In this document: in pieces, positions 2,527 through 37,467 of the stretch
Position numbering within the stretch: position 1 is the stretch's first letter
Layout: every line of letters starts with the position of its first letter
Virus record (IMG/VR): IMGVR_UViG_3300031977_001338
Span: 1-38,689 of that record
From: a virus
DNA length: 38,689 bases
Direction: 5' to 3' (one strand)
Notes under the pieces: model-generated
What the model saw: only the letters and a program-made list of their open reading frames with translations
The model's database searches: none
Told to the model about the DNA's origin: nothing
Made by a program: the position numbers and the translations under genes

Positions 2527-2952
2527 ATGCTTAAACAACTTACATCATTAGATGAACCTGCAGCTGAACACATTGCAAACGATCCTGTTAGAGGACATAT
2601 ACCAGCAATAGACAGAATTTCCAATAACAAAGAAGTTTATTATTGGGAAAAAGACGGAGAAGTAGCTGCTATGGTGTGCGTTGCACACTGTAGTTATGTT
2701 CCAGAAGATGAAGATGAGATTAACAATGAGGGTACGGATTATGCTATACTCTACACCATATGGTCCTACTCTCACTTTGCTGGAAGAAGATTAGCGCTCT
2801 CTCTTGTCGATCACTTTAGGCAAAAAGGCATTGCCAAAGGTGTTTATACACTTAGCCCTAAAACGGATACTGCCAGAAGATTTCATATGGCAAATAGGGC
2901 TACTTTATACCGTGAGAACGAAAACACATATAATTTTTATTACAGACTATGA
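2527..2952 (+). CDS. GNAT-family N-acetyltransferase
   Basis: A 141-residue protein with the GNAT layout: strands VYYWEKDGEVAAMVCVAH, then AILYTIWSYSHFAGRRLALSL (an acetyl-CoA-binding A-like turn, FAGRRLA, leading into a helix), then GVYTLSPKTDTARRFHMANR and a terminal NTYNFYYRL strand. Such proteins move acetyl groups from acetyl-CoA to amines; the substrate is unknown. The frame is open upstream to 2317 but that part overlaps the NUMOD3 gene, so the ATG at 2527, just after the upstream stop at 2523-2525, is chosen. It ends in an ATGA overlap with the kinase gene. A second possible GNAT domain is fused to a glycosyltransferase at 33184-34560. Confidence 0.65.
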   Translation: MLKQLTSLDEPAAEHIANDPVRGHIPAIDRISNNKEVYYWEKDGEVAAMVCVAHCSYVPEDEDEINNEGTDYAILYTIWSYSHFAGRRLALSLVDHFRQKGIAKGVYTLSPKTDTARRFHMANRATLYRENENTYNFYYRL

Positions 2953-3383
2953 AAATATTAATTTGCGGCTTACCAGGTTCTGGTAAATCTACGTTAGCAA
3001 AAGAATTGGCGTATCATTTCCTTTTGCCCCACCATAATGCTGACACCATCAGAGAACTATACGACGATTGGGATTTCTCTGAAGCAGGTAGATGGCGTCA
3101 GGCACTTCGTATGAAAGATTATTATGGTATACTTGACTTTGTTTGTCCAACCGCTTATACTAGAGAGCTAGTACAGGCAGATTATATTATTTGGATGGAT
3201 ACTATCAAGGAAGGCAGGTTTGAAGATACAAATAAAATCTTCGAGCCATTAGATAACTATAACATAAGGATAACACAATGGATTGGACAAAACCAACTAC
3301 GCAACTCCTTGGAAGGTTTCAACCCTGGCATAAAGGGCATACAGAACTTTTTAAGCGAGCAATTGACAAAACTGGCCAAGTAG
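2949..3383 (+). CDS. adenylylsulfate (APS) kinase-like P-loop kinase
   Basis: A 144-residue P-loop kinase resembling CysC-type APS kinases, which phosphorylate adenosine 5'-phosphosulfate to PAPS, the donor used by sulfotransferases. Visible motifs are Walker A GLPGSGKST (7-15), a NADTIR segment (30-35) matching the GDNVR substrate loop of APS kinases, DFSEAGRWRQ (42-51) matching the GFS..DR..NIRR region, and an IWMDT strand (81-85). It is shorter than classical CysC (about 200 residues). The last 35 codons overlap the next gene in another frame, which is unusual. Substrate assignment is inference; related phage kinases may act on other nucleotides. Three sulfotransferase-like genes occur elsewhere in the window. 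Confidence 0.65.
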   Translation: MKILICGLPGSGKSTLAKELAYHFLLPHHNADTIRELYDDWDFSEAGRWRQALRMKDYYGILDFVCPTAYTRELVQADYIIWMDTIKEGRFEDTNKIFEPLDNYNIRITQWIGQNQLRNSLEGFNPGIKGIQNFLSEQLTKLAK

Positions 3384-3664
3384 CTATTTTACTTAGAGCT
3401 TCTGATGGATCAGAAGGTAACCCATACGACTTTGATCAACGTGCTGTTCAAATTACAACCGCTTTAGCTAAAGAGGGTTTCTATTCTGGAGAGCATTATA
3501 TCATTTGTAACGTACCTAATATTTCGCACATTACATATGGTAGAGATGTGGGTTACACTATTGAACAAGAGAAGTTAGACGACGATGTAGAATCAATTTC
3601 TGCTACCAATATTCGTAAAGGACTGCAACAAATTGCAGCCACACACCCTAAGGTTAATGGATAG
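3278..3664 (+). CDS. HxGH-superfamily nucleotidyltransferase (NMN adenylyltransferase-like)
   Basis: A 128-residue nucleotidyltransferase of the HxGH alpha/beta phosphodiesterase superfamily. GRFQPWHKGH (12-21) is the nucleotide-binding motif in the form typical of NadM/NadR-type NMN adenylyltransferases, and ISATNIR (107-113) is the C-terminal ISxTxxR motif. The start has a good Shine-Dalgarno (AAGGA, 7-8 nt before the ATG), although it lies inside the 3' end of the upstream kinase gene (106-nt overlap). Likely reaction: transfer of a nucleotidyl group from ATP or CTP to a phosphorylated substrate. ATP sulfurylase belongs to the same superfamily, so pairing with an APS kinase is suggestive, but the motif fits NMNAT better. 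Confidence 0.75.
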   Translation: MDWTKPTTQLLGRFQPWHKGHTELFKRAIDKTGQVAILLRASDGSEGNPYDFDQRAVQITTALAKEGFYSGEHYIICNVPNISHITYGRDVGYTIEQEKLDDDVESISATNIRKGLQQIAATHPKVNG

Positions 3665-3845
3665 CGTTAGTAAGACTATAGCAAAAACAATAAGTTGGAG
3701 AATAGTCGCCACTGTCACCACAATGATAACAGCTTGGATCATTGTGGGTGACTGGCGAGTAGGGCTGGCGATAGGAACCGCCGAGTTTTTTGTTAAGATG
3801 TTTGTGTATTACATACACGAAAGGCTCTGGACTAAGAGCGAATAA
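3657..3845 (+). CDS. DUF2061-like small membrane protein
   Basis: A 62-residue protein with the DUF2061 look: SKTIAKTISWRIVATVTTMI then WIIVGDWRVGLAIGTAEFF, ending YYIHERLW. Two hydrophobic segments, about residues 12-30 and 36-52, predict a two-pass inner-membrane protein. Function is unknown for the family. The ATG at 3657 overlaps the upstream stop by 8 nt; an earlier ATG at 3633 would extend further into the nucleotidyltransferase gene and is less likely. It is the last gene of the rightward operon and converges with the methyltransferase gene, overlapping it tail-to-tail by 14 bp, so no intergenic terminator fits between them. Confidence 0.7.
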   Translation: MDSVSKTIAKTISWRIVATVTTMITAWIIVGDWRVGLAIGTAEFFVKMFVYYIHERLWTKSE

Positions 3846-4449
3846 CTGTAAAGCCCTGTTTACTCACAACCTCAACCTCGGCGTTAGGATACACTTCTTT
3901 GATAGCTTTTTGTGTACCAGGCCAGTTTGGTGTGTTGTCGTGAACGCACATAATACCACCTTTGACAATTCTGCGTTGCCAATACTCTAGTGCGTCTTTA
4001 CATGCTTGGTAATTGTGATCTGCATCATAGAAGACACAATCTACCATTATATTCCACTCAAACTTAGGTGTAAAGACTGCTTTCTGTACAGTGATGTTTT
4101 CGTAGGGCTCTGTGTTCTTTTTAAAATTGTTGTATTGTTCTTCACCGGTGCATTTAAATTGCTCCATGTGATCCATTCTTTCATCACTACCCATATACTC
4201 AACATTGAGTCCTGCTGCTTTAGCTTTGTTGAGTTCGTCTTGTGTTGGGCGTCGAGGGTTTAGTCCCTCAAATTTGTCAATAGCGTGGATCTTGAAGTCT
4301 TTACCATTTGTTTCAAATGCTTCTGCCCATGCAACGGTACTCTTTCCTTGGAAACATCCAACTTCTACTAGAATACCTTTTTGGGGGAGTAGGTGAGAAA
4401 CGACTGCATTAACTGCGAGGACATCGTCCTCGTAGAACATACCGATCAT
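3832..4449 (-). CDS. class I SAM-dependent methyltransferase
   Basis: A 205-residue Rossmann-fold methyltransferase of the Methyltransf_24-like type. SAM-binding motif I is VEVGCFQGKST (28-38); IHAIDKFEG follows as the second strand with its acidic residue, and VDCVFYDADHNYQ gives motif IV, then GGIMCVHDN. Small or glycan substrates are typical of such phage enzymes, but none can be named. Frame extends upstream to 4557 but that overlaps the neighbouring gene; the ATG at 4449, 4 nt after the upstream stop, is preferred (ATG at 4440 is possible). The 3' end overlaps the convergent DUF2061 gene by 14 bp. Confidence 0.75.
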   Translation of the reverse strand: MIGMFYEDDVLAVNAVVSHLLPQKGILVEVGCFQGKSTVAWAEAFETNGKDFKIHAIDKFEGLNPRRPTQDELNKAKAAGLNVEYMGSDERMDHMEQFKCTGEEQYNNFKKNTEPYENITVQKAVFTPKFEWNIMVDCVFYDADHNYQACKDALEYWQRRIVKGGIMCVHDNTPNWPGTQKAIKEVYPNAEVEVVSKQGFTVIRS

Positions 4450-4453
4450 TGTT

Positions 4454-7036: not shown

Positions 7037-7065
7037 ATTATAACATCGGTAGATCAAGATGTCAA
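7037..7065 (-). promoter_or_regulatory. consensus sigma-70 promoter for the 7010-rnh operon
   Basis: Minus strand: TTGACA (7065-7060), 17-nt spacer, TATAAT (7042-7037). Both hexamers and the spacing match the bacterial housekeeping consensus. The predicted start is near 7030, 20 nt before the ATG at 7010. The -35 box lies in the last codons of the upstream sulfotransferase gene. Confidence 0.85.
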
Positions 7066-7728
7066 GCACTTTTTTGGGAGGTACTTATATTTCTCTATCT
7101 CTTCGCCATAGTATTTCTGTATGACATTGACGTAATCTTGTGTATAGAGATCGGATTTTCTGTGATAATACGGTATTTCATTGAACCTTCCTAAAGGTTC
7201 TGGTACATTAAGTGAATCTTTGATTATCTGAAACTGGGAGTTCAAGTTTTCAAATTGTAAGACCCAATTTACACCTTTAGTCCACTCTGTCTGTGGCTTA
7301 TGCCATGTCTGGAATCTTGATATTTTATGATTGTGCATCCATTCAATAAAGTATGCGATTCCTTTTGCATGTGCTTCTTTTACCAATTCCCTTGCTTCCA
7401 AGGTATCATCATGTTTTGAACCGCCCCATCCATATTTTATGGTGAAGTTATTTTCTACAAAGTTATAGATGCTCATCATTCTATCGTAAGTATTTCTTCT
7501 TACTGCAAAGGTGATAAACGGCTCCAATTTTCTATAGGCTTTAGGTTGTTTTTTTAAAAGAACATCAATAGTTTGATGCCCTGTAAGGTACCAAAAATTA
7601 TATTTTCTGTTGTGCCTTTTCAACCACTGGTTAATAGCACTGCCCCCTGTCTTAGGAGCGTGGACAAATACAACTTTACGCTTTTCGCGGTTGTCTATAG
7701 TACCTTGAACGACATGATTTTCTCCCAT
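7054..7728 (-). CDS. sulfotransferase-like protein (Sulfotransfer_2 type)
   Basis: A 224-residue protein with both PAPS-binding signatures of sulfotransferases. The 5'-phosphosulfate loop is VFVHAPKTGGSAI (about 20-32), and the 3'-phosphate motif is AVRRNTYDRMMSIY (75-88), with R77 and S86 in the expected places. Such enzymes move sulfate from PAPS to carbohydrate or tyrosine acceptors. The ATG at 7728 has GGAG 9 nt upstream; a TTG at 7743 would give a longer N-terminus. It overlaps the upstream gene by 34 nt and its stop lies next to the promoter box of the following gene. It is one of three such genes in the window. The acceptor is unknown. Confidence 0.75.
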   Translation of the reverse strand: MGENHVVQGTIDNREKRKVVFVHAPKTGGSAINQWLKRHNRKYNFWYLTGHQTIDVLLKKQPKAYRKLEPFITFAVRRNTYDRMMSIYNFVENNFTIKYGWGGSKHDDTLEARELVKEAHAKGIAYFIEWMHNHKISRFQTWHKPQTEWTKGVNWVLQFENLNSQFQIIKDSLNVPEPLGRFNEIPYYHRKSDLYTQDYVNVIQKYYGEEIEKYKYLPKKCLTS

Positions 7729-7973
7729 GGGATCGTTCTCCAACCTGAAACATCTGTATCAAATACAGTGAGATTCTTATCGTTAGGAGCCTTAGGGTTT
7801 TCAACAGCAGGCACTACACTAGAACTTAATGTGCAGTTCATTTCTCTAAGTTCCCCGTTCTGTTTCTGAAACTTGAAAAAACAAGTACCGTTAGATAAAA
7901 AATTTCTAACTCTTGTTTGCCACTCTGGGTTATTTCTTTCTGCAAGGAAATCTGATTCAATCACGTTTGGCAT
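7695..7973 (-). CDS. Sm-like SH3 beta-barrel protein (WYL_2/DUF2693-like)
   Basis: A small 92-residue protein. The segment GTCFFKFQKQNGELREMNCT, then NLTVFDTDVSGWRTIPWEKI, resembles the WYL_2 (DUF2693) Sm-like fold common in T4-like marine phages, where the C-terminus usually reads as a short beta-rich module. The role is unknown; nucleic-acid or protein binding is likely for an Sm-like barrel. The ATG at 7973 has a clear Shine-Dalgarno (AAAGGAG, 7 nt spacing), so the longer reading from 8006 is rejected. The stop overlaps the sulfotransferase start region. Confidence 0.7.
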   Translation of the reverse strand: MPNVIESDFLAERNNPEWQTRVRNFLSNGTCFFKFQKQNGELREMNCTLSSSVVPAVENPKAPNDKNLTVFDTDVSGWRTIPWEKIMSFKVL

Positions 7974-7977
7974 AATA

Positions 7978-8907
7978 TTACTCCTTTTGTTTACGTTTAC
8001 TATCAATTAACCATTTTAATCTTTTACGATCTTCTTCATTACCTTTAGAGGCTTTTCCGTATTTTTCGGTAATCCAATTATCTACGTCCTCCTCTTTAGA
8101 AGGTAAATCTGTAATGTCTATATTATAGTCTTCTAACTCATTTGTCAAGTCTTTTTCACTCATAAAAGTAATTGATTCGCCTCTACGTTTTTTAATCGAC
8201 ATATTGGCAGCAACTACTAGTAGAATAGCTAAAGGATCAAATACAAAAATAAGAAGCATGATAATAATTCTAACAGCACTGTCTATACTAGACTTATCAG
8301 ATGTAGAATAAAATAGTTCTGCGATATATTTGATAGGGCCTAACTCGGCATCCATTTGTGCGACTTCTTGCCTCATTGGCAAGAGTTCTAAGTTTAATGC
8401 GTCAATGTTAGCTACTGCCTGATCCATCTCAGCATTTAATTGTTCTCTTTCTTCTCTCTGTGTTCTGTTCACATAGTTTTTATCTTCACCACGTGATGTT
8501 CTAAGAGTATCATCTAAACCTGCTAAACGATCTCTTGCCTGCTCTAGTTTGCTTCTTTCTGCATCAAGTCTAAACTCTATCACATCCATGTTTAATGTGT
8601 AGTCTTGATTGGTAGCTGTCTGATCAATATGTGCTCTTGATAGGAATCCAAAGATACCTAGTGATGTGATAACAGACAGAATAACAACTGCAGATACAAA
8701 ATACGTTTTTAATAGTTTAGTTGATGTTGTCCAATATTGGTATACCCAAGACGCTGTTACGAGTTTAGCAATCTCCAGCACAACACCCATACCAATAATC
8801 TCCGCATAAGCTGCAGGGAATATAGTGGTTAATCCAATGATTGAAAAATATGCTGCTACAGTCGATACCGCAAGAGCAGAAAATAAAAGTAAAATTATAA
8901 ATCCCAT
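7978..8907 (-). CDS. multi-pass membrane protein with a central coiled coil
   Basis: A 309-residue membrane protein. Hydrophobic segments are at about residues 3-27, 33-50, 68-88 and 208-233. Between the third and fourth lies a long charged coiled coil (about 105-200) that begins near IDQTATNQDYTLNMDV, and the C-terminal 75 residues are a hydrophilic, probably cytoplasmic tail. The IFVFDPLAILLVVAAN segment is typical of membrane proteins I associate with marine T4-like phages. Function is unknown; a DUF4407-like relation is possible. It overlaps the sulfotransferase-like gene upstream by 13 nt. It might act at the host envelope during infection, but nothing in the sequence proves it. Confidence 0.65.
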   Translation of the reverse strand: MGFIILLLFSALAVSTVAAYFSIIGLTTIFPAAYAEIIGMGVVLEIAKLVTASWVYQYWTTSTKLLKTYFVSAVVILSVITSLGIFGFLSRAHIDQTATNQDYTLNMDVIEFRLDAERSKLEQARDRLAGLDDTLRTSRGEDKNYVNRTQREEREQLNAEMDQAVANIDALNLELLPMRQEVAQMDAELGPIKYIAELFYSTSDKSSIDSAVRIIIMLLIFVFDPLAILLVVAANMSIKKRRGESITFMSEKDLTNELEDYNIDITDLPSKEEDVDNWITEKYGKASKGNEEDRKRLKWLIDSKRKQKE

Positions 8908-9524
8908 AGGTTCATCTTTGTTGTTTGATCGCCGAAGTAATTAACTTTAGTAGAGGTGTTCACTAAATCGTGATATACTTCTGGCTCAATAACCTCTTTT
9001 TTGCTTAAAGTATTATACGCTTCCCACTCTTCTTCTAAGTCAAACTCTTCGGCATATTTTGTTACTATACCCTTAAAGGTTCTTTTTCTTCCATCTAATC
9101 CTGTTTCATCATTGGGGGATCGTATATATTTACTAATGTTATCGTAAGGCAAAATGTTAAAGTCTAACGTAGGGTCAAACTTTTTTAAGTAGGGGTCGCC
9201 ATGAGTATCTTTAGCTGTAGTTCGATACTCTTTAAACTCCTCAAAAGTCTTTGAGTTACCAAATGTGTTTTGATTGCCGCAGTATCTCCAAAAATCTCTC
9301 TGTATTCCTGACACCAATCTATCAAAAGGATTTCTAATTAACAGGATAACATTTTTAAATTGCTCATCGCGAGCATAGTCGTTGAGAGTAGGATATGATT
9401 GACGAGATTCTGCCTCAAAATGAGTACATCCAAAAATCTCTCTTGTAATTACTTTTGATGCTGCTCTCAATGGAATGCTAATTACAAAAGTATCTGTTTG
9501 TACAATTATGTCTTGGGCTGCCAT
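8895..9524 (-). CDS. sulfotransferase-like protein, second copy type
   Basis: A 209-residue protein with a clear 3'-phosphate-binding motif of sulfotransferases, LLIRNPFDRLVSGIQRDF (61-78; R64, S72). The N-terminal strand-loop VISIPLRAASKVI (14-26) sits where the 5'-phosphosulfate loop should be but lacks the PKxGxT sequence, so the donor site is degenerate or divergent. It may be a diverged PAPS-dependent enzyme or a related nucleotide-binding protein. The start overlaps the GIY-YIG gene end by 19 nt, and its end overlaps the membrane-protein gene by 13 nt, so these genes are translationally packed. Confidence 0.6.
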   Translation of the reverse strand: MAAQDIIVQTDTFVISIPLRAASKVITREIFGCTHFEAESRQSYPTLNDYARDEQFKNVILLIRNPFDRLVSGIQRDFWRYCGNQNTFGNSKTFEEFKEYRTTAKDTHGDPYLKKFDPTLDFNILPYDNISKYIRSPNDETGLDGRKRTFKGIVTKYAEEFDLEEEWEAYNTLSKKEVIEPEVYHDLVNTSTKVNYFGDQTTKMNLWDL

Positions 9525-11609: not shown

Positions 11610-12583
11610 GATGCCCACACCTGTCCCCAATCTCCTGACAAAGCACCTCTTGCATAATCTGTAGCTCTGTTCTCAAAGAAGTTTGTGTGGGTTGGAGCGT
11701 TAATCATTTCCTCTACCCAGGGTAAAGGATTCTTTTTAACTTTAAAAATGCCTCTCATACCTAAACTAATAAGACGTCTGTCTGCAATATAACGAATATA
11801 CCTTTTAACTTCTTCAGGTGTTAGTCCTTCCATAGGACCCATAGCAAATGCTAAGTCAATAAATTTATCTTCAAGTTCCACCATTTTCTCTGCAATGGTG
11901 TATATTTGTCCCTTTACTTTATCGTTCCAAATGTCAATGTTCTCATTTACATAATCACGGAACAGTCTGATCATGGACTCTGAATGTTGTGTCTCGTCAA
12001 CGATAGACCAAGTAACAATCTGTCCCATGCCTTTCATTTTACCATGTCGTGGGAAGTTTAATAGCATAATGAATGAGGAAAAGAGTTGCATTCCTTCTGT
12101 GAACGCTGAGAAGGCTGCAATGTTAGTCGCAACTGATTCTCTTGTGCCGTTGGCATTAGACAAATCAGTAAAGTAATCATGCTTATCACGCATAGCTTCG
12201 TATTCAAGGAATTCATTGTATGTACTCTCTGGCATACCAAGTGTTTCAATAAGATGAGAGTATGCTGCAACGTGCAATGCTTCTCGCGCGGCAAATCCTG
12301 CTAACATCATACGAACTTCTGGTTGTGGGAAATATGGGAGATAGTTATTTACATAACCACCTGCAACATCAATATCTCCTTGTGTGAAAAATCTAAAAAT
12401 GTTTGTGAGAAATGCTTTCTCTTCGTTTGTTAATCTGTTCTTCCAGTCTTTTACATCTTCTGCCATTGGTACTTCTGTATGTAGCCAATGAGACTGCTCA
12501 TGTTTTAGCCAAGCGTCGTATGCCCATGGGTAGTTAAAGGGTTTAAAATACGTTCTCTCGTCTGTTAGTTTGCTCTTTGCCAT
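11606..12583 (-). CDS. nrdB: ribonucleoside-diphosphate reductase, beta subunit (class Ia)
   Basis: A 325-residue R2 subunit that holds the diiron-tyrosyl radical cofactor. Ferritin-like metal ligands are recognisable in order: HTEVPMAEDVKDW, EALHVAAYSHL (glutamate, histidine and the probable radical tyrosine), EGMQLFSSF and DETQHSESM. The C-terminus ends DWGQVWAS rather than the E. coli tail, so it is matched to its own NrdA. The ATG overlaps the upstream stop (TAATG). It is separated from nrdA by the QueC-like gene, which is unusual. Confidence 0.95.
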   Translation of the reverse strand: MAKSKLTDERTYFKPFNYPWAYDAWLKHEQSHWLHTEVPMAEDVKDWKNRLTNEEKAFLTNIFRFFTQGDIDVAGGYVNNYLPYFPQPEVRMMLAGFAAREALHVAAYSHLIETLGMPESTYNEFLEYEAMRDKHDYFTDLSNANGTRESVATNIAAFSAFTEGMQLFSSFIMLLNFPRHGKMKGMGQIVTWSIVDETQHSESMIRLFRDYVNENIDIWNDKVKGQIYTIAEKMVELEDKFIDLAFAMGPMEGLTPEEVKRYIRYIADRRLISLGMRGIFKVKKNPLPWVEEMINAPTHTNFFENRATDYARGALSGDWGQVWAS

Positions 12584-13191
12584 TAATTCTCTCCGAAATC
12601 TTTTTGTTTAATTTTGTTAAATGCCCATTCTCTTTCTGTACACCAATAACAAACTCCACATCTACCCTCGTCTTTTTCTGTACAACTGTGGGTAATAGGC
12701 ATTATAACATCAGCAATTCCTAAGTCAAACCCCAATTTTACTGTTTCGTCTTTCGTCATGTTCTCGAAAGGCCATGTTACATATTGTCTTTGTTCTTCAG
12801 TGGGCTCAAATCTTGGATGGGGATCCTCATTTTGATGCCTGTCATGTACTTCTTGTGAGTATGCTGTCATACCAATAAAAAGGTGATCAATATATTGATT
12901 ACCAAATACTTCATATGCTCCGTTGGTAACATAGTCCCAAGGATTGTTAGCTAGTTCTTTGCCAACAACAATGGGCTCTTGTACTGGAGCGCCTAATAAA
13001 TTGTTGATTGCCTCAACAACTAATTTGGAGTAATGTAAGGCACCATCTAGTTTAGGCACCACAAATGGTGTACACTCTTGCCCGCTCTCAAGGCAGGCTT
13101 TTTTTACAAGGTACCAGAGGACAGCGCTATCCCATCCCCCTGAAACCATTACTCCTATTCTTTTGTCTTTTGGAACACTTATCCTTCGCAT
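12583..13191 (-). CDS. QueC-like PP-loop ATPase
   Basis: A 202-residue N-type ATP pyrophosphatase. The PP-loop is SGGWDSAVLW (17-26), and the C-terminal zinc-binding cysteines C170, C178, C181 and C184 lie in HSCTEKDEGRCGVCYWC, as in QueC (7-cyano-7-deazaguanine synthase). QueC converts carboxydeazaguanine to preQ0, which can enter tRNA queuosine or phage 7-deazaguanine DNA modification. No QueD, QueE or FolE is seen here, so the product could be another PP-loop amidation or thiolation enzyme. The ATG at 13191 is chosen over a TTG at 13200; it overlaps nrdA by 13 nt. It sits between nrdA and nrdB. Confidence 0.7.
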   Translation of the reverse strand: MRRISVPKDKRIGVMVSGGWDSAVLWYLVKKACLESGQECTPFVVPKLDGALHYSKLVVEAINNLLGAPVQEPIVVGKELANNPWDYVTNGAYEVFGNQYIDHLFIGMTAYSQEVHDRHQNEDPHPRFEPTEEQRQYVTWPFENMTKDETVKLGFDLGIADVIMPITHSCTEKDEGRCGVCYWCTEREWAFNKIKQKDFGEN

Positions 13192-14975
13192 GCTAAACAA
13201 GTACCATCTGCTAAGTCATCAATTTTAATTTCTTGAATGATATCTCTTTCAATTCTTTTGGATACTTTATCTGCTTTTCCTAGTTTCTCTGAACGACAAT
13301 AGTAAAGAGTTTTTAGTTCTGTTTTCCAAGCCAAGTAATGTACTGCATGTAGATACTTGATATTTACATCAGGACGGAAAAACAGGTTAAGTGATTGTGC
13401 TTGATCAATAAATTGCTGTCTATCAGCACCATGTTCAATTAACCAGCGTTGATCAATCTCCATAGCGGTTTTATATACTGCTTTTTCTTCATCTGTTAAA
13501 CATGTTACATGCTGCACAGATCCATCATTTGCAATTATCGACGACCAAATTTCGTCGATATCCAATTTTTTATTCTTAGCCACCTTATCTTTAAGAAGAC
13601 AATTGAGATACTTATTCTTGTTGAGATGAGACCCAGATAATGTGTCCTGTCTGTAAGCATTTGCCCTAAAAGGTTCAATAGACGGCGAAGTGTTTCCCAT
13701 AATAATACTACTAGAAGCGTTGGGAGCGATAGCCATAACATGACTAAACCTTCTTCCCGTGCCGCTTGCGTCAGGCGCTTCACCTCGTTCACTGCCGATT
13801 TCAATATTTGCTTCATCTAATTTACTCCTAATATGCCTAAACATTCTAATGTTGGCACCTTTTGCTTGTGCGCTTTCCCATGCAATACCATTCTTTTGTA
13901 GATAGGCATGGAACCCTAGAGCACCTACTCCGATGCTCCTTTCTCTTAGAGCAGAATATGTCGCCCTAGATACTTGTTCTGGTGCATTGTTAATAAAATA
14001 CTCTAGAACATTATCTAGCATTTCTGCAATGTCTCTTAAAAACTGAGGGTTCTTAGACCAGGAATCATAATGTTCCAAGTTAACAGAAGATAGGCAACAA
14101 ACTGCTGTTCTGTCTTTATTTGTAGGAAGAATAATTTCTGAACACAAATTAGATTGATGAATTTTAAGTCCAAGATCCTTTTGAAACTCTGGTAAATATT
14201 TGTTACTAGTATCAATAAAGTGAATGTATGGCTCGCCTGTTTCCATACGAAGCTCTAAAATCTTTTGCCACAATGCTTTTGCTGATACAGTATCACGAAT
14301 TTCACCGCTATGAGGATCTACAAGATTCCATCCATCATCTGCATTAGGGTCTTGCATACAACGTTCAATCAATTCCATGAATCGATCTGTAATATTAATA
14401 CCGTGGTGTAGGTTAAGACATCTAACGTTAGGATCTCCTGTAGGCTTTCTCATTTCGAGAAACATTACAACGTCAGGATGGCTAATGTCAAGATAAGTAG
14501 CGTAAGAGCCACGTCTAGTGCGACCTTGGCGATATGCGAGGCATGATGAATCGTAAGTCTTGAGATGAGGCATAACACCAGTAGACTTGTCATCACTGGC
14601 ACGGATACCAAAACCAATGCCAACACCGCCACCAAGCATAGATAGCCAATTAGTTTCAGAAAGATTTTCAACTAATCCCTCCGCTGTGTCGTTGATATAA
14701 TTTAAAAAACATGAGATTGGCATTCCTTTCTTAGAGCGTCCAAAAGATAAAATCGGTGTAGAATAAGACAACCAGTGTTTACTGGAGTACTCGTACAATC
14801 GTTGTGCGTGTTCTGGATTAGAACCAAATGACTTACTGACAAAAGCAAACCGTTGTTGGGGAGAAGTTTCCTCATCTGTCATATAACTTTCTTTGAGCCT
14901 AGCGTGGCCTAACTTATCAAATAACTCATCTCTCGATGTGTCAATTTGAATCCCTAAATAATCTTCTTTTGCCAT
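13179..14975 (-). CDS. nrdA: ribonucleoside-diphosphate reductase, alpha subunit (class Ia)
   Basis: A 598-residue catalytic subunit reducing NDPs to dNDPs. Motifs follow the class I order: PISCFL (redox cysteine), NLCSEI (radical cysteine in N-x-C-x-E), VCCLSSVNL (partner cysteine), HAVHYLAWKTELKTLYY (radical-transfer tyrosines) and a CLACEG tail with the CxxC used for re-reduction. It is shorter than E. coli NrdA (761) and begins straight in the catalytic region, so no ATP-cone for dATP feedback is present. That makes it insensitive to the usual inhibition, as in many lytic phages. RBS AGAGGAAAAT precedes the ATG. Confidence 0.95.
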   Translation of the reverse strand: MAKEDYLGIQIDTSRDELFDKLGHARLKESYMTDEETSPQQRFAFVSKSFGSNPEHAQRLYEYSSKHWLSYSTPILSFGRSKKGMPISCFLNYINDTAEGLVENLSETNWLSMLGGGVGIGFGIRASDDKSTGVMPHLKTYDSSCLAYRQGRTRRGSYATYLDISHPDVVMFLEMRKPTGDPNVRCLNLHHGINITDRFMELIERCMQDPNADDGWNLVDPHSGEIRDTVSAKALWQKILELRMETGEPYIHFIDTSNKYLPEFQKDLGLKIHQSNLCSEIILPTNKDRTAVCCLSSVNLEHYDSWSKNPQFLRDIAEMLDNVLEYFINNAPEQVSRATYSALRERSIGVGALGFHAYLQKNGIAWESAQAKGANIRMFRHIRSKLDEANIEIGSERGEAPDASGTGRRFSHVMAIAPNASSSIIMGNTSPSIEPFRANAYRQDTLSGSHLNKNKYLNCLLKDKVAKNKKLDIDEIWSSIIANDGSVQHVTCLTDEEKAVYKTAMEIDQRWLIEHGADRQQFIDQAQSLNLFFRPDVNIKYLHAVHYLAWKTELKTLYYCRSEKLGKADKVSKRIERDIIQEIKIDDLADGTCLACEG

Positions 14976-14983: not shown

Positions 14984-16072
14984 CTAAATTGGTTGTTCTT
15001 TATAATTTTTGTGAAAGAGTGGTAGTTCCTTGGTAAAACACCTAGGATCAATCTTTTTGTTTTTGTAATCTACACCGGAGATAGATATATATTGATCTAA
15101 GGTTCTTGCCCTACCTAACCCGTAAATATCGTCTAGTTCGTCTGTAAAAATAAGTGTCTGTCTTTTGTGGGATAGTTCATCCAAATCCCACCATTTATCT
15201 TTGTGTCCCGCTTGAGTACCTTCATCCCAAAACATTAGTCCTTCTCTATAGGATCTCCCATAGTAATGTCTTGTTGGGTAATCATACATATGAAAAATAT
15301 TATAGCCGTTTGTCCATGCTCTAATAGCTAAACTAGGCTCTTCACCGTGAAAAAATAATTTTTCGTCATATGGTACCTCTCTTACAAAACTTCCTAATGT
15401 AAATACAGTGTTTGCACTAAAAGCAAAACCATGTATATAAGGTTGTTCTTGTTGAAAAGATCTGCAAATATAATAATGCTTCCAATGTTCTGGTATGTCC
15501 TCAAATTTGTCTACAATTAGTCCACGATAGTTTACAGTACCATCTTCGTGAAATGTTGTATCTCCGCTTCCACAGCACAATGCACGAATATTGTATTTAC
15601 CTGGTATGGGAGTAGCACAAACCGGAACATGAGAAACAGGTAAAGGATGGTTGATTATATCATCATCTATTGCACTCATTGGATCTGGGTATCCAGTAAT
15701 TAAAGGTTTTTCGTGCCACTGCTGTAAATGTTCAATTGCACTAATAAACTTTAAATCCCACTCCGTTTCCCAACCCGTATGAGAGTCTATTTGACAATAG
15801 TATTTTTCATCATTAAAAGGTTTTTGTGCTAATGCTCGTGCCCAACAACAACCTTTGCTTTCATGAGGGTGGTAATGTTGATAATGAATTTGATCTCTAA
15901 AACCATCAAAACATGGCTGGGACAAATCTAGTTTTTCCTGTGGGAAGGACTGATCAACGACAGAAAAAACTAGATTCTTTTTATAAACAGCATTGTCCCA
16001 GCAACGAACGATGGTATACATCAATAGGGGATCCCTAAAAGATGCAATAGAGATAAAAATCTTATCCTTCAT
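14984..16072 (-). CDS. GlcNAc-type glycosyltransferase (GT60-like)
   Basis: A 362-residue protein resembling the GlcNAc glycosyltransferase family (polypeptide or small-acceptor N-acetylglucosaminyltransferases). It opens IFISIASFRDPLLMYTIVRCW, has the ESKGCCWARALAQ segment (about 72-84), YYCQIDSHTGW (a D-x-H metal/donor-binding motif near 96) and a FFHGEEPSLAIRAW segment (about 242-255). Such enzymes transfer UDP-GlcNAc in the cytosol. The stop lies beside the nrdA RBS, and the start overlaps the ThyX gene by 11 nt. In this phage it may decorate a virion or host surface polymer. Confidence 0.75.
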   Translation of the reverse strand: MKDKIFISIASFRDPLLMYTIVRCWDNAVYKKNLVFSVVDQSFPQEKLDLSQPCFDGFRDQIHYQHYHPHESKGCCWARALAQKPFNDEKYYCQIDSHTGWETEWDLKFISAIEHLQQWHEKPLITGYPDPMSAIDDDIINHPLPVSHVPVCATPIPGKYNIRALCCGSGDTTFHEDGTVNYRGLIVDKFEDIPEHWKHYYICRSFQQEQPYIHGFAFSANTVFTLGSFVREVPYDEKLFFHGEEPSLAIRAWTNGYNIFHMYDYPTRHYYGRSYREGLMFWDEGTQAGHKDKWWDLDELSHKRQTLIFTDELDDIYGLGRARTLDQYISISGVDYKNKKIDPRCFTKELPLFHKNYKEQPI

Positions 16073-21287: not shown

Positions 21288-21295
21288 TATTTATA
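21288..21295 (-). promoter_or_regulatory. T4-type late promoter for the 21258-19216 structural genes
   Basis: Minus strand TATAAATA in a CTTATAAATACC context, 29 nt upstream of the ATG at 21258. The TAA stop of the radical SAM gene (21291-21293) lies inside the octamer. It would drive the 19921, 19666 and 19216 genes and perhaps 18817-17833. Confidence 0.75.
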
Positions 21296-22895: not shown

Positions 22896-22948
22896 ATTAT
22901 CAACCATCCAATCCACAATAGTGGTTTATCATCTTTCATAATGTATGT

Positions 22949-26790: not shown

Positions 26791-27413
26791 AGCTGCTCCT
26801 TCAAGAAGGACTTGAAGCTATGGAAAACTTCTCCCTCTTTAAGTTGCATACCATGTCTCACAGCTTTAAATAATTTTTTAGCATGGGTTTGAGATGCTCT
26901 GTGATGTAAACCACGCTTAAATGAATCAAAGTCATTATTGGCAGCATGAGCTCTCATTTTTGTTCCACTAATACCAGTAACACCGTCTGCATCAGGATCT
27001 CTATGTCCTGCTGAGACAACATTAATCTTTTTAAAATGATATTCCTTTCCAGGTCCGTTGTACTTGTCTACAAGTCTTTGGAATTCATGTACTCTATCAG
27101 ATCCAGCAACCATTGTTACATGGGTGTATCCTTGAGAGTGCATATTTTTTAGGTGTGCTAAGAAGTGAGGACTCTGTTTACTAGAAGCCTCAAAGTTCAC
27201 ACCTGGGTGTACATGTTTTAAATATTCTACTTTGTGATCGGAATGTAATGGGTTTTTCTTACTGTCCTGACTGTGGCTCACAATAACTTTGTGATCTGCA
27301 CCGTGTCCTCTTGCAACATCGTGTACAGCGTCAACCAATTTACTATGCCCAGCAGTAGGAGGGTTCATCCTTCCGAACGCAAATACCATATGTTTGTTTT
27401 TTCTAGCTGGCAT
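26775..27413 (-). CDS. HxGH-superfamily nucleotidyltransferase, second copy
   Basis: A 212-residue cytidylyl/adenylyltransferase-fold protein: FGRMNPPTAGHSKLVDAV gives the HxGH-type nucleotide-binding motif (P-x-x-x-G-H at the loop) and GISGTKMRAHA is the ISxTxxR-type motif (S, T and R present). GSDRVHEFQRLV supports the fold. The start has a strong SD (GGGAGG, 6 nt spacing). The C-terminus carries FHSFKSFLKEQ, echoing the FKxFLxE N-terminal motif of neighbours. It lies between spanins, ligase-like and CTS-like proteins, an odd place for nucleotide metabolism and a hint that it acts on a packaged or virion substrate. Confidence 0.7.
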   Translation of the reverse strand: MPARKNKHMVFAFGRMNPPTAGHSKLVDAVHDVARGHGADHKVIVSHSQDSKKNPLHSDHKVEYLKHVHPGVNFEASSKQSPHFLAHLKNMHSQGYTHVTMVAGSDRVHEFQRLVDKYNGPGKEYHFKKINVVSAGHRDPDADGVTGISGTKMRAHAANNDFDSFKRGLHHRASQTHAKKLFKAVRHGMQLKEGEVFHSFKSFLKEQLCIGS

Positions 27414-29105: not shown

Positions 29106-29113
29106 TATTTATA
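29106..29113 (-). promoter_or_regulatory. T4-type late promoter, upstream of the sigma-70 promoter
   Basis: Minus strand TATAAATA in a CTTATAAATACT context. The TAA stop of the GT2 gene (29109-29111) lies within it. Drives 27864 and the genes downstream, down to the spanins and kinase-fusion. Confidence 0.7.
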
Positions 29114-29831
29114 AGATTCTGGAGTACGGAAACACTAATTTATTGGGTTGCGTACCCCTAAGCATGTTGAAATCAGGGGGCTCTTCTTTGTATATCAGAC
29201 GCATGTTCTCATTGTCATAAGTAATGCTCTTCTCATAATTGTTATCGACGTATGTCTGTCTACCCCCACGTTCGATTGTTAGTGTGATACCGGAATTATT
29301 TGTGGTTGCTACCTTCTTTAGTCTGTCGTGAAACTCTCTGTCGCCATGGTGCCACCCACTAAAGGACTCGTCATATCCACCCGCATCCCAATATGTTTTC
29401 TTTGTTGTAAGGAACATATTAATATGTCCTGGGCAAGCACTAAATTGTTTTCGGTGTCTGACATAGGCGTTAAACAAATACATTCGTCCATCTTTGTAGG
29501 AGACACGTCTCAGACTTCCAACATCGCCGGGAGTAATGGTAATATCCATATCGAGGAATAGAATAGGATCTGTAGGTGCATATGTTGCAGCTAAATTTCT
29601 ACAGCCATGAGAATTAAAACCAATATCCTCATCTACTGTCCATAATTGTATGTTAGGGCCATACGGAAAGTATGTTTTCTTTAGAATATCTAGTGCAGGA
29701 TATTTCTGAGAGCCGTCATCAGTCACAAAAATTTCAACCCCAGGAGGATAATCTTCCCAGAGTTGAATTTGTTTTTCTAGAAGTTCGGGTTCCTCATAAT
29801 AGGAGTAGGCTATAGTTAGCCTTGGCTCCAT
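29109..29831 (-). CDS. GT2-family glycosyltransferase
   Basis: A 240-residue GT-A-fold enzyme using an NDP-sugar donor. It has FVTDDGS (about 35-41) for the donor loop, the metal-binding DMD in LFLDMDIT (D94, D96), and GYDESFSGWHHGDREF (a GW-type motif with acceptor-side acids). The C-terminus extends with no known domain. The start at 29831 is chosen because it follows the upstream stop by 7 nt; an ATG at 29885 would overlap it. The stop is inside the late promoter. With other glycosyltransferases here it may modify phage or cell-surface sugars. Confidence 0.75.
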   Translation of the reverse strand: MEPRLTIAYSYYEEPELLEKQIQLWEDYPPGVEIFVTDDGSQKYPALDILKKTYFPYGPNIQLWTVDEDIGFNSHGCRNLAATYAPTDPILFLDMDITITPGDVGSLRRVSYKDGRMYLFNAYVRHRKQFSACPGHINMFLTTKKTYWDAGGYDESFSGWHHGDREFHDRLKKVATTNNSGITLTIERGGRQTYVDNNYEKSITYDNENMRLIYKEEPPDFNMLRGTQPNKLVFPYSRIL

Positions 29832-29838
29832 TTTATCA

Positions 29839-30192
29839 TCATTCAGGAATTTGCCCTGCGATTCCAGCCATTTCAGATCTAACATCGATTTGTGTCACGT
29901 CCTCAGCGGGGAAGTCAATTGTTCCCCCTTGTTCTAATTGAAAGTTTTCTCCGTGTGTAAGAGAATTATTGTTGTATAACTCAAAGCCGATATAGGACTC
30001 TACTGTATTTTCAGAAATCCTACCTTCTAAGACGTGCATAAAACTTGTAACAGCCTCTCCAATTTGTTGCCAAGAAGGTTCTTTTTCAAACCTTGCAATG
30101 ATATACTCATTACAATCACATGCTCTCCACATAGGGAGATTCACGTCTCCTAGATTTTGCCAAACCTTAGTGCAGGCTACTAACTTTAGCAT
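29839..30192 (-). CDS. hypothetical small protein
   Basis: A 117-residue acidic protein with no recognised family. It opens MLKLVACTKVWQNLGDVNL and contains C-x-C (ACDCNEYI) and FMHVLEGRI segments. The ATG at 30192 has GGAG with 7 nt spacing and lies inside the upstream gene end (26 nt overlap), favouring it over the ATG at 30216. A role cannot be named. Confidence 0.55.
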   Translation of the reverse strand: MLKLVACTKVWQNLGDVNLPMWRACDCNEYIIARFEKEPSWQQIGEAVTSFMHVLEGRISENTVESYIGFELYNNNSLTHGENFQLEQGGTIDFPAEDVTQIDVRSEMAGIAGQIPE

Positions 30193-30558: not shown

Positions 30559-31014
30559 TTACCTTTTGTTCTCATAACCAATTGTTTCTTCCACTACACG
30601 CAAACGTAGGTTTGTACTGCTAAAAGAATGCTTCCTAGTGTTATATATTACTTTAATAGGTAGTTCTTTTCCAGTAAATTCCTTGTCTCTATATTCTTCA
30701 CCTATTATACGCACATTTATGGGCAATGTCAAGAGAAGATCTAACAAATCTTTCTCAGTATTGTATAGAACTATCTCATCAACAAACTTAACTGCTGCTA
30801 ATTGTATTTGTCTTTCTACGACACTTTGTACGGGTTTATTTTTATCTTTTCTGTCAATAGAAGGATCAATTTGCAAACCAACAATTAAATAATCACAATG
30901 CCTTTTGGCTTCTTCAAGCATTGTAATATGTCCTGCATGTAGTAAATCAAATGTACTACATGTAAAACCAATTGTCTTATCAGCTAAGTCTTTATAATTT
31001 AATATCATACCCAT
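30559..31014 (-). CDS. glycerol-3-phosphate cytidylyltransferase-like nucleotidyltransferase
   Basis: A 151-residue HxGH-superfamily enzyme like TagD/HldE-type cytidylyltransferases, making CDP-glycerol or an ADP-heptose-type precursor. CSTFDLLHAGHITMLEEAK (about 19-37) has the HxGH motif and the adjacent DLLH; the C-terminal SSTNLRLRV gives the ISSTxxR-like motif. VVERQIQLAAVKFVDEIVLY is typical of this family. The start overlaps the upstream TAA. It is the third HxGH enzyme in the window, and the most clearly cell-wall- or lipid-linked. Confidence 0.8.
   Translation of the reverse strand: MGMILNYKDLADKTIGFTCSTFDLLHAGHITMLEEAKRHCDYLIVGLQIDPSIDRKDKNKPVQSVVERQIQLAAVKFVDEIVLYNTEKDLLDLLLTLPINVRIIGEEYRDKEFTGKELPIKVIYNTRKHSFSSTNLRLRVVEETIGYENKR
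30704..30732 (-). promoter_or_regulatory. consensus sigma-70 promoter inside the cytidylyltransferase gene
   Basis: Minus strand TTGACA (30732-30727), 17-nt spacer, TATAAT (30709-30704), all inside coding sequence. Predicted start near 30697; the next starts downstream are at 30530 and 30355, so it would feed those small genes and the GT2 gene. Confidence 0.6.
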
Positions 31015-32415: not shown

Positions 32416-32444
32416 ATTATATAGCCTTATGACTTAATTGTCAA
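32416..32444 (-). promoter_or_regulatory. consensus sigma-70 promoter, apparently giving a leaderless mRNA
   Basis: Minus strand TTGACA (32444-32439), 17-nt spacer, TATAAT (32421-32416), a full match. The ATG at 32407 begins 8 nt after the -10 box, so transcription would start at or beside the start codon. The TGA stop of the desaturase gene (32443-32441) is inside the -35 box. Confidence 0.85.
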
Positions 32445-33187
32445 GACTTTTTATTAAAGAATTTGTTTAACATCATGCCCCACCAGTCGTATTTTTCATG
32501 ATACAAAACTGAACGAGGACTATCGTGATGGTTTCCATGCCAGCCTTCTCCTGCTGATATAAAACCTAGAAAATGATTGTTTGTTGCTCCGGGTACCATG
32601 TGTACCACTGATGTTAGATAGGCAAGTGTAAGTCTAGATAGTCCAACTGGCACAAGCCAAAAGTAGACTATAGCAAAAGGATCAATTAGCAGAAGTAAAA
32701 GTGCGAAACTTATGATAACTAGCCAATAATACTCTACTTGCCATTTGTAGAAAGGATCTGTGATAAGATGTCTTGCATGAATGTATTTGACATCTTCTGT
32801 GAGGAATGGAAGATTAAAGACAACATTCCAAAACCCTTTGTGGATTGGAGAATGAGGATCTTTATCTGTGTCGGTATGTGCATGATGTGCAATGTGCTGT
32901 GCCACCCAATGAAATGCTGGTCCTAAACACATCATGTTTGCGCAAAGAGCGGTAAATCTTTTAAACCACTCTGGGCATTTAATTTGTCTGTGTGCTGCTA
33001 TTCTATGATAGCCTGTAAAAATTCCAAAATTATTCCAAAGTACATAGCCTACAGCAGCCATAGCCCAATGAAAGGGTGTTCCGTTCATAACAAGAACTGG
33101 AATCAATAGGATGCCAAAAATGTTTAGCCATTGTCCTATTGTAATGTGTAGATTGGATGCTACACTAAATTTAAAAATGTTTTTCAC
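32441..33187 (-). CDS. fatty acid desaturase
   Basis: A 248-residue integral-membrane acyl desaturase (delta-9 type), introducing double bonds into acyl chains with O2 and a diiron site. Three histidine boxes are complete: HRIAAH (61-66), HIAHH (98-102) and HGNHH (217-221). Four hydrophobic segments match the family topology. The start codon is GTG at 33187, overlapping the preceding TGA (GTGA). Phages carrying lipid desaturases are known, mainly cyanophages. It may adjust membrane fluidity or modify lipids during infection. Confidence 0.88.
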   Translation of the reverse strand: MKNIFKFSVASNLHITIGQWLNIFGILLIPVLVMNGTPFHWAMAAVGYVLWNNFGIFTGYHRIAAHRQIKCPEWFKRFTALCANMMCLGPAFHWVAQHIAHHAHTDTDKDPHSPIHKGFWNVVFNLPFLTEDVKYIHARHLITDPFYKWQVEYYWLVIISFALLLLLIDPFAIVYFWLVPVGLSRLTLAYLTSVVHMVPGATNNHFLGFISAGEGWHGNHHDSPRSVLYHEKYDWWGMMLNKFFNKKS

Positions 33188-34560
33188 TGGTTGTGCTCTG
33201 CGTCTATACTTTGGAGATACGCTTCAATTCCAACACAATTAGGACAGTCATTATAAACTACATACTGTGGTGTATAGTTAATTGTACAAAGACGTGGCCA
33301 TGCTTTAGCAGGAATAAAGTATCTTCCTTTTGTTACGTTGGGTGCAACGTCTGCTAATTTGTAATCATTAATTTTAGCATTCGTTTCAAACAACTTCTTA
33401 TTGTATTTATTAAAGCACCAAATGTACCCATCATATTTTTTCAACATAAATTGATAAGTTCTTTCAACCCACCATTGATAAAACTCATAAGTTTCGCCTC
33501 TGTACTCTGGCAGGGTAAAAGACCTTGTACCAATATTAGCATAGTTAGTATCGTGTAGTCTGTTTAACCCACAACCAGATACAATTTTACCATCTTTCTT
33601 AAACAATGTATAGAAGCCATTGTTTTCTTCGTCATAAATTTTCTGATAAAATAGTTTGTTTAAAAATTGCTCAGGTTTTGATTCCCAATCTTTATGCCAC
33701 ATGATATCAGAGCCAGGTCCTCCTGCTGCTTGTGCCGCTTTAGCCCACTCGATAATCATCTTAGGATCAGATTTGCTGTTAACATCAATATAGTAATGCT
33801 TCACATACGCTGCATCAAGTGCAGCAATAGTGTTGTCTATTTCTTCTTTATTGCCAATAAATGTACCCCAAGCTCCGTTTGTGTCGTAGTCCCAGACATA
33901 AAGAAACTCGTCAGTGTTATGCTTTACTAGACTATCGATACTGTACAGCTCTGCACTTGCTACTACGTCCTCAGAGCCTCTCAGGTGTGTTAGATACTTA
34001 AAGGAGCCTGCAGCCTCTTGGGACAAGCATAAGATACGATTGAGTCCGTTCTTAACAGGGTGATTGTGTCGTCTTAGAGCCTTGCCAAATCGTTTCCACG
34101 ACTTAATTGTTGCCATATCCCATTCTTTAGCTTCGAAGACTTGTCTGGGTATAATGTCCTCTGCAATGTTTAGTCCCACACCAGTTTCCTGATTTGTTTG
34201 TACTAATACATCACACTCCTGCTCTTGTACAATTTCACATAAACGGGAAAAGTCTTTGAGATAGTCATCACCATCAACAGGCACTAGATAGTCGTATGGT
34301 GTGGTGAGAAAATAATCTAAAACGGACTGCTTACCTTGTCCGGGTGTGCCGTTAGACTCTGTTACAATAAACTTACACTTGTTTCTTTCTGCTACTTCTC
34401 TTGCTCTGTCAGCATAAGTCGGATCTAAACTGTTTGATACAACGACGATATCAGCCCATAACCCAACAGGATTATAAAAAGGCTGATTAATATTGAGGAT
34501 AGCTCTTTCTAGTTTCTCAGTGTCGTCTGATGTGAGGATGCCTACTAAAAATCTAGACAT
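33184..34560 (-). CDS. GT2-like glycosyltransferase fused to a GNAT-like domain
   Basis: A 458-residue protein. Residues 1-230 look like a GT-A GT2 domain with the metal-binding DGDD (96-99) in VPVDGDDY. Residues about 300-420 look GNAT-like: YTLFKKDGKIVSGCGLNRLH strands, then TRSFTLPEYRGETYEF and YDGYIWCFNKYNKKLFE in the positions of the acetyl-CoA-binding turn and last strands. Such a fusion could glycosylate and acylate one product. The C-terminal CPNC motif (DCPNCVG) is a possible metal or disulfide site. It overlaps the desaturase by 4 nt. Confidence 0.7.
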   Translation of the reverse strand: MSRFLVGILTSDDTEKLERAILNINQPFYNPVGLWADIVVVSNSLDPTYADRAREVAERNKCKFIVTESNGTPGQGKQSVLDYFLTTPYDYLVPVDGDDYLKDFSRLCEIVQEQECDVLVQTNQETGVGLNIAEDIIPRQVFEAKEWDMATIKSWKRFGKALRRHNHPVKNGLNRILCLSQEAAGSFKYLTHLRGSEDVVASAELYSIDSLVKHNTDEFLYVWDYDTNGAWGTFIGNKEEIDNTIAALDAAYVKHYYIDVNSKSDPKMIIEWAKAAQAAGGPGSDIMWHKDWESKPEQFLNKLFYQKIYDEENNGFYTLFKKDGKIVSGCGLNRLHDTNYANIGTRSFTLPEYRGETYEFYQWWVERTYQFMLKKYDGYIWCFNKYNKKLFETNAKINDYKLADVAPNVTKGRYFIPAKAWPRLCTINYTPQYVVYNDCPNCVGIEAYLQSIDAEHNQ

Positions 34561-36339: not shown

Positions 36340-36340
36340 A

Positions 36341-36619: not shown

Positions 36620-36653
36620 AAACAAACCTCACTTCTTTATTGTCTATGCGTAC

Positions 36654-36682: not shown

Positions 36683-36742
36683 GCCTTTTTTTAACTTTTT
36701 TTCACTTTTTTTTACTATAGGTATCAGTAACTTATAGGGTAC

Positions 36743-36771
36743 ATTATAGCATCTGAATCTGGTTTTGTCAA
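36743..36771 (-). promoter_or_regulatory. consensus sigma-70 promoter P2 (distal) for the 36619 operon
   Basis: Minus strand TTGACA (36771-36766), 17-nt spacer, TATAAT (36748-36743). It shares a 12-nt GCTATAATGTAC core and the GCTTGACA context with P1, 89 nt away, suggesting tandem strong early promoters. Confidence 0.85.
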
Positions 36772-36803
36772 GCCTAAAAACCCTATAAAAATCAACAACT
36801 TAC

Positions 36804-36830
36804 AGGCGCTGTCAGACGCTAGCAGCGCCT
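36804..36830 (-). terminator. possible terminator hairpin after the sulfotransferase gene
   Basis: An 8-bp perfect stem (AGGCGCTG/CAGCGCCT) closes an 11-nt loop in the gap after the stop at 36853. A run of five T appears only about 14 nt past the stem on the minus strand, so it is not a textbook intrinsic terminator. It may still mark the 3' end of the glycosyltransferase/sulfotransferase mRNA just before P2 starts. Confidence 0.45.
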
Positions 36831-36852
36831 CTGTCTCACACGCTATTTTAGG

Positions 36853-37467
36853 CTACCCTAGGGTATGTAATTGGTATTTTTTTTGTAGCTCGTACTTCTC
36901 TGACGTATCGTGTATCAAGTCCGTTACTCTACTGTATCTGGGATTCTGCTCTGCTTTAACATAATGGGTTGAAGTACTGTATAAATCCTCATACCATGTG
37001 ATTTCGCGATGGTTATATCTGCAATAGTCTAAAATGATACCTGTATACTTACCAAAACGATCAATCATATTAGGTAACATCCATGAGAATACTGCGTCGG
37101 CATCATCTCTCTGCTCTACAGTATCAACAATAAAGTTAAACCATGACTTAACCATATTGTGAAAGTTTCTCCTTAGCAGAAAATAATCTGCAAAAGGAAG
37201 TAATGTTATTGGGGAATGTATATTTGATTGGATAACATATTTGTTATGTTTTGACAGGGCTCGCATAAAGTCAAAAGGTGTTCTAACAGGTTGGCAATTA
37301 GGTATTTCGTGATTCTTATTCTTATGTTCTGCTAAACTAACAAACTTATGATCATAACCTATAGTATGATCAAAACATAACTCTCCAAAATATTCTAAAT
37401 TGTGTTCCTCTGCCAAGTCCATACAGAACTTGGTGCCACCACTTCTAGGTAATGTAATTACAATCAT
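36853..37467 (-). CDS. sulfotransferase-like protein, third copy type
   Basis: A 204-residue protein. MIVITLPRSGGTKFCMDL (1-18) is a phosphosulfate-loop-like P-x-S-G-G-T/S motif at the very N-terminus, and FLLRRNFHNMVKSWFNF (96-112) gives the 3'-phosphate-binding R and S (R99, S108). It is a sulfotransferase or a closely related nucleotide-binding transferase. The ATG overlaps the upstream gene stop (4 nt). Its partner is a glycosyltransferase-like gene, which suggests that the two modify one sugar polymer. Confidence 0.7.
   Translation of the reverse strand: MIVITLPRSGGTKFCMDLAEEHNLEYFGELCFDHTIGYDHKFVSLAEHKNKNHEIPNCQPVRTPFDFMRALSKHNKYVIQSNIHSPITLLPFADYFLLRRNFHNMVKSWFNFIVDTVEQRDDADAVFSWMLPNMIDRFGKYTGIILDYCRYNHREITWYEDLYSTSTHYVKAEQNPRYSRVTDLIHDTSEKYELQKKYQLHTLG

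Follow-up and report, generated by a model that had tools for sequence, protein, structure and literature searches.

A candidate sulfate-activation cassette in a marine phage fragment and its relatives in SAR11-order genomes

How might a phage supply activated sulfate to enzymes that transfer it? The question is raised by IMG/VR record IMGVR_UViG_3300031977_001338, covered here in full (38,689 bases, classed linear; hereafter the window), which is probably a phage fragment. An earlier note on this DNA had described a kinase-like enzyme for adenosine 5'-phosphosulfate (APS), a step that yields 3'-phosphoadenosine 5'-phosphosulfate (PAPS), alongside sulfotransferase-like and glycosyltransferase-like proteins. 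Every open reading frame (ORF) that it named is present where it had been placed. The note had added that the APS itself would have to come from somewhere; its source is likely the adjacent nucleotidyltransferase gene (NT), which it had overlooked together with a small gene after it. We think it fairly probable that positions 2949-3845 form a three-gene sulfate-activation cassette making PAPS for the phage's own sulfotransferases:

2949..3383, plus strand: compact APS-kinase-like enzyme of 144 aa, predicted to convert APS to PAPS (PDB profile, AlphaFold/Foldseek, PF01583-positive relatives)
3278..3664, plus strand: NT, a 128-aa HIGH-superfamily nucleotidyltransferase, predicted sulfate adenylyltransferase (PF01467 over cut-off; context)
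3657..3845, plus strand: DUF2061 small membrane protein, third cassette gene, accessory (PF09834, E 6.5e-20)

These genes form one operon: the kinase frame overlaps that of NT by 106 nt, and the end of NT overlaps the DUF2061 ATG at 3657. Of 36 kinase-bearing IMG/VR loci, about 30 have NT directly after the kinase, and both the overlap and the kinase stop position are kept across most phage loci. Two sequenced phages that were examined, Clavibacter phage 33 and Stenotrophomonas phage DLP6, encode a single kinase-NT protein of 243-245 aa, with an APS_kinase match above cut-off and a CTP_transf_like match, and the 230-aa family phrog_10255 is matched by the window kinase at 2-114 and by NT at 125-229. 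In an unrooted FastTree tree of concatenated kinase and NT sequences, the marine phage pairs formed one group, parted by a long branch (support 1.000) from all cellular and fused forms; the window copy is therefore no recent capture from a sampled host, and the tree gives no host identification. In phages the final 35 kinase codons also encode, in a different frame, the beginning of NT (3278-3383). This tail is predicted as confident helices (predicted local distance difference test (pLDDT) 86-95), and in cells the overlap of the pair does not exceed about 20 nt. A brief look by eye, with a programmed frameshift fusion in mind, revealed no classical slippery heptamer at the overlap.

We infer a route in which NT would replace ATP sulfurylase, running in the direction sulfate + ATP -> APS + pyrophosphate (PPi), and the kinase would phosphorylate the product at its 3' position (APS + ATP -> PAPS + ADP). 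DUF2061 would be an accessory membrane protein travelling with the kinase-NT pair. PAPS would then be delivered to the sulfotransferase-like protein encoded at 7054, and probably to those at 8895 and 36853, for the reaction PAPS + acceptor -> sulfated acceptor + 3'-phosphoadenosine 5'-phosphate, the acceptor presumably being some host or virion molecule.

Profiles, a predicted structure and active-site residues bear out the earlier call that 2949-3383 encodes a relative of APS kinases, which we regard as confirmed at the level of sequence and model. With a family profile of 24 sequences, both phage and cellular, the PDB matches that extended beyond the P-loop were solved APS kinases (2yvu, E 5.6e-12; 3cr7, 6.6e-9; 1d6j, 8.2e-9). 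The window kinase alone falls under the Pfam cut-off (PF01583, 17.3 vs 21.1 bits); its cellular homologues score about 22-53 bits, above cut-off, and span model positions 3-95. The AlphaFold model was confident (pLDDT 94.1), and its best PDB folds in Foldseek were APS kinases (1m7h, 3cr7 and 1m7g), followed by gluconate and shikimate kinases. We take the APS-site residues to be Arg66, Phe75 and Arg80, plus Asn83 (P. chrysogenum numbering); the Arg, Phe and Arg are aligned in the profile match (NADxxR, WDFS, GR) and also conserved in A3. NT carries the motifs GRFQPWHxGH and ISATxIR and a conserved segment, YGR(D/G)VGY. Two more HIGH-type nucleotidyltransferase-like genes lie elsewhere in the window, at 30559-31014 (PF01467, E 3.9e-13) and 26775-27413 (E 0.0014, below cut-off).

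What NT might do is best seen in bacteria. A genome scan recovered the kinase from SAR11, SAR86 and further alpha- and gammaproteobacterial genomes; in nearly all cases NT comes next, the ends of the two genes overlapping or abutting. The strongest context evidence is a cysH-DUF2061-kinase-NT operon in four alphaproteobacterial genomes (L169-L172), two of which were scanned (cysH, PAPS_reduct E 2e-41 and 9e-42; DUF2061, E 2e-22 and 1e-21). A PAPS- or APS-reducing operon requires an APS-forming enzyme, and NT is the only candidate for that role within this one; CysD was not found in the four genomes, where the sole weak match falls on the CysH gene itself. Because the phage cassette, too, includes DUF2061 as its third gene, kinase, NT and DUF2061 occur together both in a phage and in a sulfate assimilation operon; the literature on DUF2061 yielded no function. 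Kinase and NT are fused in one frame in four further alphaproteobacterial loci (L173-L176), with APS_kinase matches of 50-53 bits plus CTP_transf_like in the three that were scanned. At another locus (L060), an inositol-phosphatase-family ORF (PF00459, 168 bits), CysQ-like by our reading, lies directly upstream of kinase-NT.

The pair is widespread in the SAR11 order. Among 147 genomes, many of them incomplete and with aprA counted over its curated cut-off, 100 had the kinase, 110 NT, 99 both and 108 aprA. Canonical Sat was present in only 6, and kinase, NT and aprA were all missing from the 10 genomes that had a CysN/C-length fusion. NT was found in 101 of the 108 aprA-positive versus 9 of the 39 aprA-negative genomes (Fisher p 8e-17, uncorrected for shared ancestry). 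It lies no more than 4 kb from aprA in 38 genomes. There, either kinase-NT and 116aa-aprA-aprB converge, or NT is followed by an aprM/QmoC-like gene, aprB, aprA, the 116-aa gene and TauE (L112, L113, L115, L117). The operon order in sulfur oxidisers is sat-aprMBA, and in the second arrangement NT is found where sat would be, next to aprM-like, aprB and aprA. In sulfur oxidisers, the APS that AprBA forms from sulfite is the substrate from which Sat frees sulfate (PMC6382920).

Several features of these bacterial loci merit record. The 116-aa protein, without a Pfam match, directly follows aprA in all SAR11-type apr loci that we read (L112:7341-7691 and equivalents). In some SAR11-order genomes (L118-L123), 1-3 large ORFs (about 590-775 aa), several with a signal-peptide-like start, lie between kinase and NT. 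At loci of another SAR11 group, including L052 and L055, the pair sits beside DmdA-like and MetF-like genes, and at L052 a methanethiol-oxidase-like gene is near (all by eye). A second NT in one SAR11-order genome (G153, L130) adjoins a CysC-type match within a sugar-epimerase cluster.

These distributions bear on a known puzzle. For Ca. Pelagibacter ubique, Smith et al. 2016 reported AprBA and the absence of sat and cysDNCHIJ, which leaves the fate of APS open, and their Table 3 nonetheless lists one cysC (PMC5069961). The kinase described here is possibly that cysC. The view, cited in the earlier note for many SAR11, that these bacteria lack sulfate activation may be wrong, because most sampled SAR11-order genomes carry kinase-NT. 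We see an even chance that NT represents a third class of sulfate adenylyltransferase, NadM-like and related to Sat and CysDN at the superfamily level only, which would carry out sulfate activation with the kinase in SAR11 and allied ocean bacteria and which phages would carry to provide their own sulfotransferases with PAPS; such a class would explain AprBA without sat.

Is there, in the phage, anything to consume PAPS? The earlier note had counted three sulfotransferase-like proteins:

7054..7743, minus strand: sulfotransferase with motifs PKTGGS and RRNTYDRMMS, ATG at 7728 (phrog_3347, E 2.1e-12)
8895..9524, minus strand: sulfotransferase-like, marginal, with LRAASK and RNPFDRLVS (PF03567 E 0.008 and PF00685 E 0.03, both below cut-off)
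36853..37467, minus strand: sulfotransferase-like by motif only, LPRSGGT and RRNFHNMVKSW

One of them stands: 7054 matches phrog_3347, Galactose-3-O-sulfotransferase, and has one weak match among 50,697 phage records, to a protein of Pelagibacter phage Mosig annotated sulfotransfer. The second is marginal. The sub-threshold matches of 8895 cover the 3'-phosphate-binding (3'-PB) region, its 3'-PB pattern is accompanied by a degenerate 5'-phosphosulfate-binding (5'-PSB) one, and a relative at L040 matches PF00685 with E 0.002. For 36853 the evidence is its motifs; it had no match in family scans, and an AlphaFold model computed with three close relatives was unusable (pLDDT 50), so it gave no fold evidence. 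Neither 36853 nor 8895 has a relative among the same phage records, and single-sequence PDB searches with 36853 and 7054 gave nothing useful. In a 162-kb relative, none of 225 ORFs showed the paired 5'-PSB/3'-PB pattern, which two window ORFs (7054 and 36853) have, and by this rough estimate it is therefore not a frequent chance match.

The co-occurrence of an APS-kinase-like enzyme and sulfotransferase-like proteins on one phage fragment, which the earlier note had highlighted, is supported beyond the window. In a related phage (L018), kinase, NT and a 201-aa protein follow one another head to tail with overlapping starts and stops; the third protein has sulfotransferase motifs (FPRFGST, RRDVYGAYLS) and no hidden Markov model (HMM) support. 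Close relatives of the window carry the cassette and 7054 homologues on the same contigs, some with 8895 and 36853 as well. An exception to this linkage may be the 162-kb relative, G170, as discussed next.

A number of observations weigh against the proposed cassette. G170 has kinase-NT and no recognisable sulfotransferase, and in some phage loci (L028, L029, L031) the kinase has no adjoining NT. In the kinase itself, the position of Asn83 holds Gln, and the C-terminal lid half of APS kinases (RDxKGLY) is unrecognisable, with no match past model position ~91-95. The SAR11-order co-occurrence statistics ignore shared ancestry and draw on many incomplete genomes. By PDB profile and NCBIfam, the nearest solved relatives of NT are nicotinamide mononucleotide (NMN) adenylyltransferases of the NadM type, and on the Sat model PF01747 NT stays sub-threshold (16.4-17.0 vs 24.3 bits). 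No Sat was among its PDB profile matches. Homology of NT to Sat, raised by the weak PF01747 match, was dropped because the PDB profiles point to NadM; for the same reason, the proposed sulfurylase role draws on gene context and not on homology, and we do not file NT as a Sat member, proposing at most that it works like Sat.

The kinship with NadM suggests a different function, NAD salvage, in which NT would be a short NMN adenylyltransferase and the kinase a nicotinamide riboside kinase, as in NadR with its domain order reversed; NadR does have these same two kinds of domain. Yet NT scores far below the cut-off of the NMN adenylyltransferase family model (35.2 vs 127 bits) and, in the stretch separating its two conserved halves (query 65-92 vs chain 62-110), is about 21 residues shorter than NadM. 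With the kinase profile, APS kinases are matched at 5.6e-12 and nicotinamide riboside kinase at 0.0065, the latter over the P-loop only, and the cellular neighbours (aprBA, cysH and TauE) are sulfur genes. Kinase similarity and gene context led us to set NAD salvage aside as improbable. A closer variant keeps the kinase acting on APS and makes NT purely catabolic, running APS + PPi or phosphate -> ATP or ADP + sulfate downstream of AprBA, so that in phages the pair would serve host energy or sulfite disposal and not sulfotransfer. The position of NT and kinase-NT beside aprBA and TauE in SAR11-order genomes would suit this. However, ORF reading and family scans of the window turned up no aprBA, the cysH-DUF2061-kinase-NT operon is assimilatory, and the window has a sulfotransferase, as L018 has a sulfotransferase-like gene right after NT; we consider a catabolic NT unlikely.

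The earlier note had instead joined sulfation to glycan decoration, citing four glycosyltransferase (GT)-like proteins:

14984..16072, minus strand: N-acetylglucosamine (GlcNAc)-type glycosyltransferase, in a nucleotide-metabolism region (PF11397, 128.7 bits, over cut-off)
29109..29885, minus strand: GT2-family glycosyltransferase (PF10111 and PF00535, over cut-off)
33184..34560, minus strand: GT2-like N-terminus with a possible GNAT C-terminus (by eye; PF00583 E 0.038 only)
37464..38687, minus strand: possible glycosyltransferase, running off the end of the window and overlapping 36853 (by eye)

The calls at 14984 and 29109 held at Pfam cut-offs; family scans matched no GT model to 33184 or 37464. 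One dedicated system of glycan synthesis and sulfation, with all window glycosyltransferases and sulfotransferases acting together, would fit the overlap of sulfotransferase-like 36853 with the possible glycosyltransferase at 37464, and a GT8-like gene follows kinase-NT in phage L007. But the genes lie in several operons, 14984 sits amid nucleotide-metabolism genes, and two of the four GT calls and one sulfotransferase call have no HMM support. Together with the absence of a recognisable sulfotransferase from G170, which has kinase-NT, this makes a single decoration system very doubtful. The three-gene cassette supplying PAPS remains the reading that we prefer.

The gene content of the window includes class I ribonucleotide reductase-like, ThyX-like, T4-type RNase H (PF09293) and DNA primase-like genes and a tRNA-Thr, and is, by our own reading, that of a T4-like marine myovirus. 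A megablast of positions 1-24000 against named phages gave no match. Most window genes lie on the minus strand; a plus-strand block, 162-3845, closes with the cassette. Three further proteins had been listed in the earlier note:

2317..2952, plus strand: GNAT-like (PF00583 sub-threshold, 18.0 vs 20.7 bits)
3832: methyltransferase (PF13578, 4e-15)
31577: SGNH hydrolase (by eye only)

Only the methyltransferase is backed by a family model. The stop of the GNAT-like gene overlaps the kinase start, placing both in one transcription unit, and its product probably stands outside the cassette's chemistry. A fatty-acid desaturase (32441-33187; PF00487, E 2.7e-11) shares an operon with the SGNH-like and GT2/GNAT-like genes. 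The 688-aa product of 22949-25015 combines a Zeta_toxin/AAA_33 kinase domain (PF06414, E 9e-11) at its N-terminus with a C-terminal part that is long and charged, and the 541-aa product of 21291-22916, with the motif GCIFNCHFC, looks radical-SAM-like by eye. A QueC-like gene (12583-13200; PF06508, E 5.5e-11), with possible 7-deazaguanine chemistry, adjoins the ribonucleotide reductase-like genes.

Phage-borne APS kinase (as a cysC auxiliary gene) and sulfotransferase genes are already known singly (PMC8066274; PMC10580990), and the role of phage sulfotransferases has been stated to be unclear (PMC10580990). Our literature search, in an incomplete library, returned no report of a single phage that has both a full PAPS-forming cassette including NT and sulfotransferases; neither a phage APS kinase/sulfotransferase system nor a replacement sulfurylase in SAR11 was reported within its coverage, outside which lie preprints and most subscription papers. 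The novelty, pending biochemistry, would be PAPS synthesis through a non-orthologous first enzyme. If so, the cassette would close a recognised gap in the sulfur metabolism of SAR11, an abundant ocean bacterial group whose missing sulfurylase would be identified; presence/absence tables based on sat and cysDN would understate sulfate activation, and marine phages would carry a complete route to PAPS with which some target is sulfated in infected cells. With a possible missing SAR11 sulfurylase at stake, the bacterial distribution of kinase-NT is of more interest than the phage finding alone.

Each part has a familiar counterpart from which it departs. NadM/NadR NMN adenylyltransferases are the nearest solved sequence relatives of NT; unlike them, NT reaches 35 vs 127 bits, is about 21 residues shorter between its halves and has sulfur-gene neighbours. 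The kinase shares with CysC/APS kinase (PF01583) the P-loop, xxDxxR, FS..(D)R and F-(I/V)-x-P motifs and the same fold, but most members have about 135-165 aa, Asn83 is replaced by Gln, and model positions 92-152 are unmatched. Cellular NT stands where sat does in the sat-aprMBA operon of sulfur oxidisers, by aprM-like, aprB and aprA, although NT is no Sat homologue at the family level and the apr arrangement is cellular, not found in the phage. The two-domain protein of phrog_10255 is the same protein, annotated just 'kinase', whereas the window has two overlapping genes. A functional parallel would be the bifunctional PAPS synthetases (human PAPSS1/2; Aquifex SAT/APS kinase, PDB 2gks), which likewise unite an APS-forming and an APS-phosphorylating unit and which the fused kinase-NT members (L173-L176, L196, L197) resemble; the cassette differs from them in that its first enzyme is a short NadM-like nucleotidyltransferase instead of Sat, its kinase is compact with no recognisable lid half, and the window encodes the two as overlapping genes.

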